Source of the DNA: Pseudomonadota bacterium
Lineage (GTDB): Bacteria; Pseudomonadota; Gammaproteobacteria; Xanthomonadales; Ahniellaceae
DNA: 64,000 nt
Assembly (NCBI GenBank): GCA_022843465.1
Contig: JALHNO010000017.1
Location: forward strand, 1-64,000
Reading direction: 5' to 3'
In this document: positions 32,986 through 55,057 of the stretch, in pieces
Numbering within the stretch: the first letter of the stretch is position 1
How the letters are laid out: every line of letters starts with the position of its first letter
Position numbers and translations under genes: made by a program
Notes under the pieces: model-generated
What the model saw: the letters and a program-made list of their open reading frames with translations, nothing else
What the model was told of the DNA's origin: nothing
Database searches by the model: none

Positions 32986-33063
32986 AGCAACGGCAACGGC
33001 GACGGCGACGGCAACAGCAACGGCGACGGCAACAGCAACGGCAACGGCAACGGCAACGGCAAG
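32986..33063. repeat. 13-unit hexanucleotide tract (consensus GGCAAC)
   Basis: Thirteen contiguous 6-base units drawn from GGCAAC, GGCGAC and AGCAAC, ending GGCAAG. It lies in the 590-bp intergenic region between the ribosomal operon terminator and the Rhs operon. Short frames across it give low-complexity NG or AV peptides and are not genes. Just left is a GAGCGCGG/CCGCGCTC hairpin (32965-32985). Confidence 0.9.
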
Positions 33064-52105: not shown

Positions 52106-52375
52106 CGGGCTTGCCCCATAGGCGTCAGCCGGTTTTTCCTGGCGGTAGATCGGGGCTTGCACCATAGGCGTCAGCCCGTTTTTCCTGGCGGTAGATCGGG
52201 GCTTGCCCCATAGGCGTCAGCCAGTTTTTCCTGGCGGTAGATCGGGGCTTGCACCATAGGCGTCAGCCTGCTTTTCCTGGCGGTAGATCGGGGCTTGCTC
52301 CATAGGCGTCAGCCCGTTTTTCCTGGCGGTAGATCGGGGCTTGCACCATAGGCGTTAGCCTGTTTTTCCTCGCCA
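52106..52375. repeat. 46-bp tandem minisatellite, six copies
   Basis: The unit runs GGGGCTTGCNCCATAGGCGT.. to ..CCTGGCGGTAGATC with an exact 46-base period (starts near 52106, 52152, 52198, 52244, 52290, 52336). The first unit differs on its left, the last ends early. The base after CTTGC varies C, A, C, A, T, A. A related sequence appears in reverse orientation at about 52885-52915 and 53672-53702. Confidence 0.92.
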
Positions 52376-52428
52376 ATGATTGCCCTGTCCAAAGCGCGGC
52401 TGTCTATCATCCGGCCTTGGTGTGCGCT

Positions 52429-52836
52429 CGCCCCGAAGGGGCACATCAATTCAGCCCAGGGCAACGCCCTGGGTAGGCGGGCAGATGATCCCGAAGCCCT
52501 GAAAGGGCGATTCAGTCCCTCACGTTGCGTTCGTCAAACGCGACGCGGCCGTTCAAGAAGCGCACGGATTTCGTCCTCGAACGTCCTGACGCGATGATGC
52601 GCAGGCTGCCTCGCAAACGTAGCGACGCACCGGTGCCAGGATTGATTCGGACACGGAAGCGGCGCCATAGCCGGTGTGCCACGCGAAGTACACGGTTCCT
52701 CGTGCTGAATACCATGCAGATGCAAACGCGCCAACGATTGAGACATCGATTTGACTCGCCCTTTCAGGGCTTCGGGTGGAGCGCGACCATACCCAGGGCG
52801 TTGCCCTGGGCTGAATTGATGTGCCCCTTCGGGGCG
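52429..52836 (-). mobile_element. REP-flanked RAYT-derived element, copy A
   Basis: Terminal inverted arms of about 80 bp (52429-52510 and 52757-52836) each carry three hairpins: GCCCC-GAA-GGGGC, CCCAGGGC-AAC-GCCCTGGG and GCCCT-GAA-AGGGC. Between them lies a degenerate minus-strand remnant of an IS200-like transposase gene (52512-52746). The layout is that of a non-autonomous, MITE-like derivative. Confidence 0.7.
52512..52746 (-). pseudogene. Internally deleted IS200-like/RAYT transposase remnant, copy A
   Basis: Begins MSQSLARLHLH, continues after a frame change as VFSTRNRVLRV, and ends near VAFDERNVRD. These are the two ends of the Y1 transposase family. The central catalytic region with the HUH motif is absent. 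Length is not a multiple of three, so the frame is broken. Confidence 0.7.
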
Positions 52837-53073
52837 CAAATCTATGGTGTGCCGGGCCAAAATTCAGGAACCAGCCAAACAGGTTGACGCCTATGGGGCT
52901 GGCCCCGATGACCTTGATCTTGATCGTGATTTCGGTCCTGATCCCGGCGCCGAGCGCCGATCAAGCCCCGCTTTGCAGGACCGGACAAGGATTGCGGTCC
53001 AGACGCGCGCGACGAGCCCCGCTCGTGAGAAGAGCGCGAGACACTCGGCGCAAGCTTGGATTCACATACCCCC

Positions 53074-53098
53074 AAAAAAAAGCCGCCCTGTGGGCGGC
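53074..53098 (-). terminator. Terminator copy in block A (tRNA-Ser type)
   Basis: Minus-strand stem GCCGCCC/GGGCGGC with ACA loop and eight T residues. Same stem as the terminator after tRNA-Ser. The adjoining TGGCGGAGA resembles the tRNA 3' end (CCA plus acceptor strand). Confidence 0.8.
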
Positions 53099-53217
53099 CT
53101 CCTGGTATGTGGCGGAGATCGGGATTGCTGGGCTCATCCCTGAGCCCAGCCCGCGCGTTGCACGGGCCAGCCTCTGGGTGTCCTGAATCGCTGTCTATCA
53201 TCCGGCCTTGGTGCGCT

Positions 53218-53626
53218 CGCCCCGAAGGGGCACATCAATTCAGCCCAGGGCAACGCCCTGGGTAGGCGGGCAGATGATCCCGAAGCCCTGAAAGGGCGAT
53301 TCAGTCCCACACGTAGCGTTCGTCAAACGCGACGCCATGCCGTTCAAGAAGTGCACGGATTTCGTCCTCGAACGCCCTGACGCGATGATGTGCAGGCTGC
53401 CTCGCAAACGTAGCGACGCATCGGTGCCAGGTTTGATGCGGACACGGAAGCGGCGCCATAGCCGGCCTGCCACGCGAAGTACACGGTTCCTCGTGCTGAA
53501 TACCATGCACATGTAAACGCGCCAGCGATTGAGACATCGATTTGACTCGCCCTTTCAGGGCTTCGGGTGACGCGCGACCATACCCAGGGCGTTGCCCTGG
53601 GCTGAATTGATGTGCCCCTTCGGGGC
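53218..53626 (-). mobile_element. REP-flanked RAYT-derived element, copy B
   Basis: Same structure as copy A: inverted arms 53218-53298 and 53548-53626 with three hairpins each, enclosing a transposase remnant at 53301-53537. Confidence 0.7.
53301..53537 (-). pseudogene. Internally deleted IS200-like/RAYT transposase remnant, copy B
   Basis: An open 78-codon frame that begins MSQSLARLHVHG and ends EIRALLERHGVAFDERYVWD, the typical end of IS200-like transposases. In another frame the middle reads VFSTRNRVLRV and GYGAASVS, also family motifs. HUH histidines and most of the catalytic core are deleted. It cannot encode an active enzyme. Confidence 0.72.
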
Positions 53627-53861
53627 GCAAATCTATGGTGTGCCGGGCCAAAATTCAGGAACCAGCCAAACAGGTTGACGCCTATGGGGCTGGCCCCGAT
53701 GACCTTGATCTTGATCGTGATTTCGGTCCTGATCCCGGCGCCGAGCGCCGATCAAGCCCCGCTTTGCAGGACCGGACAAGGATTGCGGTCCAGACGCGCG
53801 CGACGAGCCCCGCTCGTGAGAAGAGCGCGGGACACTCTGCGCAAGCGTGGATTCACATACC

Positions 53862-53883
53862 AAAAAGCCGCCCTGTGGGCGGC
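53862..53883 (-). terminator. Terminator copy in block B (tRNA-Ser type)
   Basis: Stem GCCGCCC/GGGCGGC followed by five T residues on the minus strand, again next to TGGCGGAGA. Confidence 0.75.
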
Positions 53884-54015
53884 CTCCTGGTATGTGGCGG
53901 AGACAGGGATTGCTGGGCTCATCCCTGAGCCCAGCCCGCGCGTTGCGCGGGCCAGCCTCCGGCTGTCCTGAATCGCTCCAGGCGATTCAGTCGAACCCCA
54001 GTCGCCCCGAGCTAA

Positions 54016-54084
54016 CCACTCTCTCTGCCACATACCAAAAAGCCGCCCTGTGGGCGGCCTCCTGGTATGTGGCGGAGAGAGTGG
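54016..54084. repeat. 21-bp inverted repeat of the tRNA-Ser 3' end around its terminator
   Basis: CCACTCTCTCTGCCACATACC (54016-54036) is the reverse complement, with one mismatch, of 54064-54084. The second arm is the T-arm/acceptor/CCA end of tRNA-Ser plus 6 downstream bases. The terminator stem sits in the centre. Confidence 0.85.
54037..54058 (-). terminator. Terminator of tRNA-Ser
   Basis: Minus-strand stem GCCGCCC/GGGCGGC with ACA loop and five T residues, starting 11 bases after the encoded CCA. Confidence 0.85.
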
Positions 54085-54159
54085 GATTCGAACCCACGGT
54101 GGGCTTACACCCACGGCAGTTTTCAAGACTGCTGCCTTAAACCACTCGGCCATCTCTCC
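54070..54159 (-). tRNA. tRNA-Ser (anticodon UGA)
   Basis: A 90-base gene including an encoded CCA. Acceptor GGAGAGA/TCTCTCC, D-stem GCC/GGC, anticodon stem GCAGT/ACTGC with loop CTTGAAA (anticodon TGA), long class II variable arm GTGGG/GCCCAC and T-stem GTGGG/CCCAC with loop TTCGAAT. It reads UCA and wobble codons. Three partial copies of its 5' half lie upstream, and terminator copies lie downstream. Confidence 0.97.
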
Positions 54160-54276
54160 GATTTTTTACCTCCGCGACGCCACCGCCACGGCAGTTTGAC
54201 TCCGGGCTCCCTGCCCTCCGCCCTTCGGGCCGGCTCCGCTGCGCTGCGCCGTTCGCAATCGTTCCAGACGATTGCG

Positions 54277-54313
54277 TCAAGACTGCTGCCTCAAACCACT
54301 CGGCCATCTCTCC
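54277..54313 (-). pseudogene. tRNA-Ser 5'-half copy 1
   Basis: 37 bases equal to tRNA-Ser from its 5' end through the anticodon TGA, with one difference in the D-loop region. A 79-bp insert (54198-54276) then separates it from AAACTGCCGTGG (54186-54197), the next 12 bases of the tRNA. The rest of the 3' half is missing. Confidence 0.9.
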
Positions 54314-54365
54314 GATTTTTTTACCTCCGCGACATCACCGCCACGGCAGTTTGACTCCGGGCTCC

Positions 54366-54412
54366 CGACAATAGCTCCTGCATTGTTCTACCTCGGGCAT
54401 CCATGCCCTCGC
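54366..54412 (-). repeat. Dispersed 47-bp two-hairpin repeat, copy 2
   Basis: Lies inside the insert of tRNA half-copy 2. The insert of half-copy 1 is identical around this point but lacks exactly these 47 bases, giving an empty site for comparison. Confidence 0.85.
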
Positions 54413-54478
54413 CTGCCCTCCGCCCTTCGGGCCGGCTCCGCTGCGCTGCGCCGTTCGCAATCGTTCCAGACGATTGCG

Positions 54479-54515
54479 TCAAGACTGCTGCCTTAAACCA
54501 CTCGGCCATCTCTCC
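54479..54515 (-). pseudogene. tRNA-Ser 5'-half copy 2
   Basis: 37 bases identical to the tRNA 5' half, interrupted right after the anticodon by a 126-bp insert (54353-54478), then AAACTGCCGTGG (54341-54352). The repeat period to the neighbours is 201-202 bp. Confidence 0.9.
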
Positions 54516-54566
54516 GATTTTTTACCTCCGCGACGTCACCGCCACGGCAGTTTGACTCCGGGCTCC

Positions 54567-54613
54567 CGACAATAGCTCCTGCATTGTTCTACCTCGGGCA
54601 TCCATGCCCTCGC
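54567..54613 (-). repeat. Dispersed 47-bp two-hairpin repeat, copy 3
   Basis: Identical to copy 2 and in the same place within the insert of tRNA half-copy 3. Hairpins GGGCAT/ATGCCC and ACAAT/ATTGT. Confidence 0.85.
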
Positions 54614-54679
54614 CTGCCCTCCGCCCTTCGGGCCGGCTCCGCTGCGCTGCGCCGTTCGCAATCGTTCCAGACGATTGCG

Positions 54680-54716
54680 TCAAGACTGCTGCCTTAAACC
54701 ACTCGGCCATCTCTCC
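54680..54716 (-). pseudogene. tRNA-Ser 5'-half copy 3 (promoter-proximal)
   Basis: 37 bases identical to the tRNA 5' half, followed by a 126-bp insert (54554-54679) and AAACTGCCGTGG (54542-54553). Every insert starts with a CGCAATCGT/ACGATTGCG hairpin. This is the first copy after the candidate promoter. Confidence 0.9.
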
Positions 54717-54758
54717 GATTTGCTGCGCCCGCGACGTCGTGGTCCGGGCCAGTCCGGC

Positions 54759-54788
54759 ATTGTAGGTGCGACTGAGGGCCGGCGCCAA
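54759..54788 (-). promoter_or_regulatory. Candidate promoter of the tRNA-Ser array
   Basis: Minus-strand TTGGCG (-35), 18-bp spacer, TACAAT (-10, 5 of 6 consensus), about 43 bases before half-copy 3. No comparable promoter was seen directly before the intact tRNA. Confidence 0.5.
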
Positions 54789-55057
54789 GCGCGACCGGCA
54801 TTTCTGGTTGGGCTGAGCCGCGGGCACAGGGGCAACACTGGCGTTCTGGGCTGGGCTCTGGCCAGGGAAAACCGCGGGGCATTGCCTCCACGCCCGGACC
54901 GGTTCAGGATGTCGTCCAGGCCGGTGCAGCGGGGAATCAGGCGGGGTGGCTGGAGGTTTGTCCGGATTCGGGCTGGGAAATCTCTGAATTGCACCACTTT
55001 TGCTTGCTCCGTGTGTCGGGCTTGAAAGAGGATGGCGGCTTCTGCTGGGGGAAAAAT
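54789..55057. other. Intergenic region before the response regulator
   Basis: No gene or clear repeat seen. It must hold the promoter of the rightward regulator gene, but no strong sigma-70 match stands out. Confidence 0.5.

Follow-up and report, generated by a model that had tools for sequence, protein, structure and literature searches.

The window, by which we mean the whole stretch of 64,000 nucleotides analysed here, carries on its minus strand an intact, uninterrupted tRNA-Ser(UGA) gene at positions 54070-54159 (ARAGORN; Rfam RF00005, 62.7 bits). Serine tRNAs have long variable arms, so that any second copy of this gene would be expected among tRNA matches longer than 80 bases; ten such matches occur in the source genome, and this is the only one with a UGA anticodon. 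Three tandem units lie 5' of the gene on the same strand, starting at 54717, 54516 and 54314 and measuring 201, 202 and 154 bp, each composed of tRNA bases 1-37 (through A36), an insert, 12 further tRNA bases (AAACTGCCGTGG) and a spacer of 25-26 bp. Unit C (54517-54717) thus has its 5' half at 54680-54716, an insert of 126 bp in the anticodon loop at 54554-54679, the 12 tRNA bases at 54542-54553 and the spacer at 54517-54541. The corresponding parts of unit B (54315-54516) lie at 54479-54515, 54353-54478 (also 126 bp), 54341-54352 and 54315-54340, and those of unit A (54161-54314), whose 5' half has one substitution, at 54277-54313, 54198-54276 (79 bp), 54186-54197 and 54161-54185. The insertion site falls exactly between tRNA positions 36 and 37, and both break points are unambiguous, since a C stands at either end of the insert, the first following A36 and the last preceding A37. 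The tRNA copies of the array have neither T arm nor acceptor 3' strand; their leader-like spacers resemble the sequence upstream of the array. The initial annotation had described tRNA-Ser(UGA) 5' halves with a period of 201-202 bp and one shortened unit, broken at 36/37 after the anticodon by an insert of 79 or 126 bp, followed by 12 tRNA bases and a spacer and placed 5' of the intact tRNA on its strand; the coordinates, the junctions and a TRF analysis (period 201, 2.5 copies, 99% matches, score 1001) bear this description out.

The aligned inserts have four hairpins in common (HP1-HP4), which form a core of about 80 nt. In unit A this core is the whole insert, and the difference between 79 and 126 bp corresponds to a second repeat of 47 bp nested in the HP4 loop of units B (54365-54411) and C (54566-54612), on the minus strand in both, which by eye forms two hairpins with GGA in the loop and has 25 further matches in the source genome outside the array (contigs 35, 26, 38, 21, 13 and others; L040-L064). 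Six cores taken from three genomes, with no E. coli sequence among them, served to train a covariance model, R1. It scores unit A at 100.3 bits (54195-54280), the sequence itself being in the training set, and units B (54386-54482) and C (54587-54683) at 87.3 bits each, most of each core being a training sequence.

Downstream of the gene, a hairpin that by eye resembles a terminator and has a T run occupies 54031-54069 on the minus strand, its stem continuing into sequence complementary to the 3' end of the tRNA; an identical second copy lies at 53856-53894, and a terminator scan of 53700-55000 listed no site. At several tRNA genes (window 54031-54069; L075, L078, L065) such hairpins extend into the complement of the acceptor 3' strand, giving long palindromes whose pairing could compete with the folding of the tRNA. 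A further unit at 53895-54030, again on the minus strand, is made of a strand resembling the acceptor complement, then ...GGGGTTCGA, a core at 53912-53990 placed in the T loop, and AATCCCTGTCTCCGCCA; R1 recognizes this core, which is outside its training set, at 53908-53994 (53.4 bits, E 1.7e-10). An incomplete second copy (53123-53201, minus strand; a weak R1 match of 17.8 bits, E 0.017) sits inside a direct duplication of 796 bp (52399-53192 and 53190-53977, 95.7% over that length) that holds four copies of a 47-bp motif in both orientations. The Rfam family Acido-Lenti-1 reaches 35.4 bits, against a cut-off of 37, on the two of these motif copies lying in the stretch scanned; this family, sX4 and others were rejected as identities since all score below their cut-offs. 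Elsewhere in the window we noted a 46-bp tandem repeat (52107-52370; 5.7 copies, 94% matches) and a GCAACG hexamer repeat (32987-33062; 12.7 copies).

Similar units occur at other tRNA genes of the source genome. Three T-loop units follow tRNA-Gln(CUG) on contig 5, the first repeating the last 18 tRNA bases, ATCCTAGTCTCCCAGCCA, and an R1 match is found just downstream of two serine tRNA genes, tRNA-Ser(GGA) (contig 2) and tRNA-Ser(GCU) (contig 3). In all, R1 has 11 matches in this genome at E <= 1. The nine with E <= 1.1e-4 all lie within 430 nt of a tRNA, at four loci; the loci of the other two (E 0.001 and 0.83) contain no tRNA. By arithmetic from 43 tRNA matches, at most about 1.2% of the genome is within 700 nt of a tRNA. 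As a separate observation, a csrA gene (Pfam CsrA, E 3.5e-25) lies directly upstream of tRNA-Ser(GCU) on contig 3 (L078:620-817, 1064-1154), which places the regulator beside a candidate sponge.

The core is widespread. Counting the source genome each time, R1 detected it in 116 of the 200 order genomes sampled (E <= 1e-4), in 111 of 276 genomes of the class sample (E <= 1e-5) and in 47 of 299 genomes of the phylum sample (E <= 1e-6), 22 of these 47 being outside the class. Because the training loops of R1 carried GGA, a loop-blind model, R2, was built with the HP1 and HP4 loops masked, from an alignment (A6) of seven sequences; with it, 51 of 140 genomes proved to contain the element. Named genomes were also scanned with a DNA pattern, which gave at least 119 stretches, some of them from Dyella, Rhodanobacter, Dokdonella, Alishewanella, Rheinheimera, Bowmanella and Gilliamella; 80 of the stretches were taken into the analysis. 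The hairpins are supported by compensatory variation. In alignment A4 (142 distinct rows) 97.2% of cells are paired and both sides change in 21 of 24 pairs, which none of 500 shuffles reaches, against 30-43% for slid structures; in alignment A8 (68 rows) the values are 98.3%, 20 of 21 pairs, and 28-43% for slid structures, both alignments being fitted to models, which favours the structure and is offset by the controls only in part. The insert is therefore a conserved, covarying four-hairpin RNA element. Both models also recognize the E. coli repeat rrB, located between two terminators of rrnB and outside training (R1, 64.7 bits, E 4e-14; loop-blind R2, 54.9 bits), so that the window element has the sequence and structure of the RrB core and, judged on these, the core belongs to the TLR/RrB family (RrA/RrB/RrF). 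R1 matches the E. coli tyrT repeats (rttR) weakly (25 bits, E 3e-5).

In other genomes, the sampled matches, which are the top-scoring ones, cluster at tRNA genes. Counting as near any match within 700 nt, 100 of 141 in the pooled samples are near a tRNA, inserted mostly in T, anticodon or D loops, and 98 of these 100 are on the tRNA strand. Set b of the order sample (80 of 85 matches, leaving out the five weakest, from 60 regions picked among the top-scoring order rows and partly overlapping set c) has 60 of 80 near a tRNA, all 60 on its strand, 40 of them downstream and 20 upstream. The two class samples (33 of 37 and 28 of 32 matches used; one set of 20 regions was picked from class-search rows) have 23 of 33 near a tRNA, 21 on the same strand (16 downstream, 5 upstream) and two on the opposite one, and 17 of 28, all on the same strand (12 downstream, 5 upstream). 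In these three samples 20 of 80, 10 of 33 and 11 of 28 matches, or between a quarter and two fifths, have no tRNA nearby. Set a (107 of 137 matches, the 30 weakest left out) has 88 near a tRNA, 86 on the same strand and two on the opposite one; it was fetched with a pattern beginning TTCGAC and is therefore biased towards T loops. For set c, 51 of 61 matches were used, one left-out row being a duplicate place and nine being weaker or side matches, including those of L067, L081 and L094. Once the repeats of set c are removed, the 54 places of set b break downstream in the T loop (31) or at unassigned or other sites (4), and upstream in the T loop (7), the anticodon loop (5), the D loop (5) or elsewhere (2). 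The left flank of the core ends mostly in GA (TTCGA, CTTGA, GCTGA).

The initial annotation had proposed looking in related genomes for inserts in the anticodon loops of other tRNAs, and these do exist. Upstream anticodon-loop grafts occur in tRNA-Ser(UGA) in the window, in G199 (L280), in G014 (L256, with the break one base earlier) and in Rhodanobacter fulvus Jip2 (L172), as well as in tRNA-Ser(GGA) (L284), tRNA-Arg(CCG) (L250) and, by eye, tRNA-Ser(CGA) (L351); D-loop grafts are found in tRNA-Ser(GCU). At L256 (contig 107) an upstream copy of tRNA-Ser(UGA) is nearly complete; its acceptor 3' strand is altered, and its anticodon loop and T loop hold a core each, which suggests that the 5' halves of the window may be truncated forms of such grafted tRNA copies. 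Arrays or copies of 5' halves in G028 (L067), G038 (L068, with the same 36/37 break) and G017 (L069) hold inserts that R1 does not match, so that not every 5'-half array carries this core; these inserts may be diverged cores or different inserts altogether. A family of the order, f12, has the core inside another repeated hairpin, ACTTTTCTTTGCTTG...AAAGAAAAGTAACC (L110, L112, L123, L245, L293 and others), with many copies in some genomes.

Of the four loops, two carry a common motif, mostly CNGGA in HP1 and mostly A(N)GGA in HP4, which we take to be close to the CsrA consensus. Among the 142 R1 rows GGA is present in HP1 in 136 and in HP4 in 137, compared with 3 for HP2 and 15 for HP3, R1 having been trained on GGA loops. 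The signature persists in the loop-blind search: among 64 distinct rows from outside E. coli, 50 have GGA in HP1 and 51 in HP4, compared with 11 in HP2 and 10 in HP3, some R1 bias remaining since the 46 sources of R2 rows comprise 30 R2-search loci, 14 from R1 searches and two from E. coli. Shuffling letters within loops (500 times) for 70 rows, with repeats and rrB kept and rttR left out, gave GGA in 13.9 and 20.3 rows on average, and in at most 23 and 31, against the 55 and 56 rows observed. Loci fetched by the DNA pattern, which fixed HP1 and left HP4 free, show GGA in HP4 in 107 of 125 distinct rows, in HP2 in 9 and in HP3 in 30. The motif is missing from both HP1 and HP4 in rttR and in some rows of L352, L357, L360, L361 and L362. 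Such joint loss is more frequent than expected (45/6/7/7 without rttR, Fisher p 0.004, the rows not being phylogenetically independent), and two coupled GGA sites would suit the CsrA dimer.

A sigma-70-type promoter (TTGGCG, 18 nt, TACAAT) is predicted by consensus match alone at 54759-54788 on the minus strand, upstream of the whole array; it is the only promoter-like site in 53700-55000, where shuffled sequences have 0.1 on average. Because the only predicted promoter lies upstream of the array, every tRNA-Ser(UGA) transcript is predicted to carry three modules in its leader. Folded together with the anticodon stem, the core gives four hairpins closed by that stem plus UUGAC/GUCAA (z -1.98). 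The 3' unit of tRNA-Gln adopts a closed multibranch fold with the tRNA pieces as closing stem (z -8.1), and the 3' unit of the window has a z of -5.5. Two other stretches gain no stability over shuffled sequences, namely unit A taken with some of its spacer (z -0.15) and a piece of a long unit (z 0.10). Starting from what is observed of the anatomy, family membership and conservation of the core, its tRNA linkage and strand, and its loop signature, we judge it fairly probable that the array consists of TLR-kind modules grafted in the loops of partial tRNA-Ser(UGA) copies and titrating CsrA/RsmA, a reading in which we infer transcription, processing, binding, the regulatory effect and the way the core entered. 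RNA polymerase starting upstream of the array would copy three leader modules with every tRNA, and tRNA processing would release them. The pieces of the tRNA arm, namely the anticodon stem plus UUGAC/GUCAA, would form the stem that closes the core, and the GGA loops of HP1 and HP4 would fill both sites of a CsrA/RsmA dimer. Such titration would make CsrA activity track tRNA synthesis and growth. Downstream modules, unlike those in the leader, would need terminator read-through. RNAs containing tRNA halves, which the initial annotation had envisaged, are plausible, given that the array shares the strand of the tRNA and is preceded by the only predicted promoter and followed by the tRNA itself. 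Its idea of a decoy comes close to the proposed titration, although the target would be CsrA/RsmA and not tRNA-acting factors.

Several other explanations deserve consideration. The core might be a mobile palindromic repeat, that is, a DNA element, selfish or spread passively, that favours hairpin loops or is merely tolerated there, multiplies in tandem by unequal crossing-over and makes a functionless RNA. Many dispersed copies in G162, G037, G308 and G420, the f12 cores lodged inside another repeated hairpin, the second repeat nested in HP4 and the variable presence of the element all fit this idea; G001, of the same genus, has no R1 match in its genome and, in the stretch compared, an intact tRNA-Ser(UGA) without 5' units. 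Yet the T-loop site contains the palindrome TTCGAA, and the copies near tRNAs are nevertheless on the tRNA strand in 98 of 100 cases; GGA is kept in two of four loops; and G-U outnumbers A-C in paired cells (81 versus 22, or 36 versus 17 without the dominant pair, in an alignment fitted to the model, which favours G-U). The E. coli rrB RNA, moreover, is transcribed, processed and experimentally bound by CsrA (PMC8144298). The same-strand orientation, the GGA loops on one strand and the G-U excess favour an RNA role, whereas the dispersed copies with identical scores that some genomes hold point to spread as a repeat; the two are not mutually exclusive, and we regard a mobile repeat with a functionless RNA as rather unlikely. 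An aid to processing or folding seems to us less probable still: the modules would hold the nascent pre-tRNA or trailer folded, or offer RNase E/P sites, any CsrA binding being incidental. This would agree with the tRNA pieces closing the tRNA-Gln 3' unit and with the proposal that RNase E recognizes the repeated 3' end (PMC8144298), but it leaves GGA in two of four loops unexplained and sits poorly with the small number of tRNA genes that have modules (four tRNA loci among the 43 tRNA matches of the source genome).

A further explanation is the decay of a duplicated tRNA gene holding a random insert; simple decay of this kind in relatives, together with a lack of transcription, is what the initial annotation had named as overturning its reading. 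It is consistent with units that are near-identical tandem copies, as from duplication, and with the lack of units in G001 in the stretch compared. A random insert is nonetheless untenable because the insert covaries and recurs in 116 of 200 order genomes and in E. coli rrB; this ruled out random decay as far as the insert is concerned and makes the explanation very improbable, while simple duplication is likely the source of the number of units. The reading as an intron or split tRNA rests on a site that adjoins the classic 37/38 intron position, a likeness already pointed to in the initial annotation. It does not hold, the insert being confined to the flanking tRNA copies: the intact tRNA is uninterrupted, cores also use T and D loops, and no Rfam intron family matched in the window, 53000-55000 included, all of which reduces the chance of this interpretation to almost nil. 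Anticodon and T loops are known integrase sublocations, and site-specific integration by a tyrosine recombinase is a candidate origin of the grafts, against which it can be said that the junctions keep both sides of the loop around the core and that D loops and non-tRNA hairpins are used too.

CsrA is a global regulator, and titration of CsrA/RsmA by the grafted modules, as preferred here, could have a significance beyond this locus. We advance as a tentative possibility, held with less confidence than the reading of the array itself, a growth-coupled control of CsrA throughout the Gammaproteobacteria, in which a two-site CsrA-binding module is grafted into the loops of tRNA or 5S rRNA pieces, the downstream modules being made by read-through and the leader modules (in anticodon, D or T loops of upstream copies) in fixed ratio to the tRNA; the tRNA-Ser(UGA) associated with the leader modules of the window is single-copy. 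Our samples suggest that, outside E. coli, tRNA-linked copies mostly retain both GGA loops. That an RNA module has been grafted so precisely, and repeatedly, into the loops of tRNAs is of interest in itself, and whether tRNA transcripts titrate CsrA/RsmA becomes a directly testable question. The element also provides candidate RsmA-sequestering RNAs for this order; for Xanthomonas, PMC7694677 states that no significant CsrB/RsmX/Y/Z homologue exists in any sequenced genome.

Among known systems, the closest are the TLRs of E. coli. The initial annotation, whose inventory of three 5' units stands, had missed both the 3'-side T-loop unit (54030-53895) and the membership of this class. TLRs occur as one to five repeats per locus within a tRNA or rRNA transcription unit; here there are three 5' units, one 3' unit and one incomplete unit in the window and three at the tRNA-Gln of the same genome, and the window units adjoin the tRNA on its strand, with a promoter predicted by consensus match. 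Their hallmark, an identity of 18-19 bp between the 3' end of the repeat and the 3' end of the upstream RNA gene, is seen over 18 bases in the first tRNA-Gln unit (ATCCTAGTCTCCCAGCCA) and only approximately in the 3' unit of the window (AATCCCTGTCTCCGCCA versus AATCCCACTCTCTCCGCCA); the 5' array, built of a 5' half and 12 central bases, does not show it. We therefore regard the 3'-side units as TLRs and, because the hallmark fails while the core is common, set the 5'-side grafts apart from published TLRs as a new type of placement. Among the open PMC papers listed, we recognized no report of upstream (5'-side) TLRs; for the E. coli TLRs, PMC8144298 cites Rudd 1999 and Egan and Landy 1978.

The likeness to E. 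coli RrA/RrB/RrF takes in the four-hairpin core, the GGA loops, the tandem units in tRNA or rRNA transcripts (a predicted transcript in the window) and, in the 3'-side units, the repetition of the RNA 3' end from the T loop on. The rrB core also splits a host RNA, the 5S sequence GAGTAGGGA|ACTGCCAGGCAT reappearing as GAGTAGGA|core|ACTGCCAGGCAT. As described in PMC8144298, E. coli TLRs lie downstream of the RNA gene, unlike the main array of the window, which is upstream and in anticodon loops, and unlike other cases that use D or T loops of upstream tRNA copies. The same source gives the function of TLRs as not known, presents the CsrA-binding members of rRNA operons as exceptions among them, predicts that the 19 TLRs of E. 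coli tRNA operons do not bind CsrA, and reports modest and similar effects for deletion and overexpression of rrA/B/F (PMC8144298); the tandem tRNA-linked copies found here, in contrast, are mostly of the GGA type. RrB has been reported from Enterobacteriales (PMC8144298), whereas here many genomes of the class, as well as some from beyond it, carry the core. RtT RNA (RF00391; the tyrT/tyrV repeats, rttR) is similar in its break in the T loop, its tandem repeats behind a tRNA and its weak core match, but rttR is without GGA in HP1 and HP4. The RtT family matches the E. coli rttR repeats but nothing in the window, and even a limit of E <= 5 brings up no RtT hit in 53000-55000; an Rfam scan of the end of E. 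coli rrnB returned no family for rrB itself.

CsrB/CsrC, RsmX/Y/Z and RsmU share with the core several GGA motifs, generally in hairpin loops. According to PMC7694677, the CsrB-type RNAs are separate sRNA genes and RsmU is a product of an mRNA 3' UTR, unlike modules grafted into tRNAs. Rfam families for CsrB and RsmX/Y/Z have no match at their cut-offs in the window, rsmX reaching 16.6 bits against 56. A last parallel comes from biotechnology, where an engineered tRNA scaffold for RNA expression has foreign RNA grafted into the tRNA anticodon arm. The array likewise carries RNA grafted into an anticodon arm, and differs in being natural, multi-copy, situated in a leader, and devoid of the acceptor 3' strand and T arm. 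If the growth-coupled control of CsrA suggested above for the Gammaproteobacteria is true, the modules would be a natural counterpart of that scaffold and would provide a role for TLRs, long without a function.
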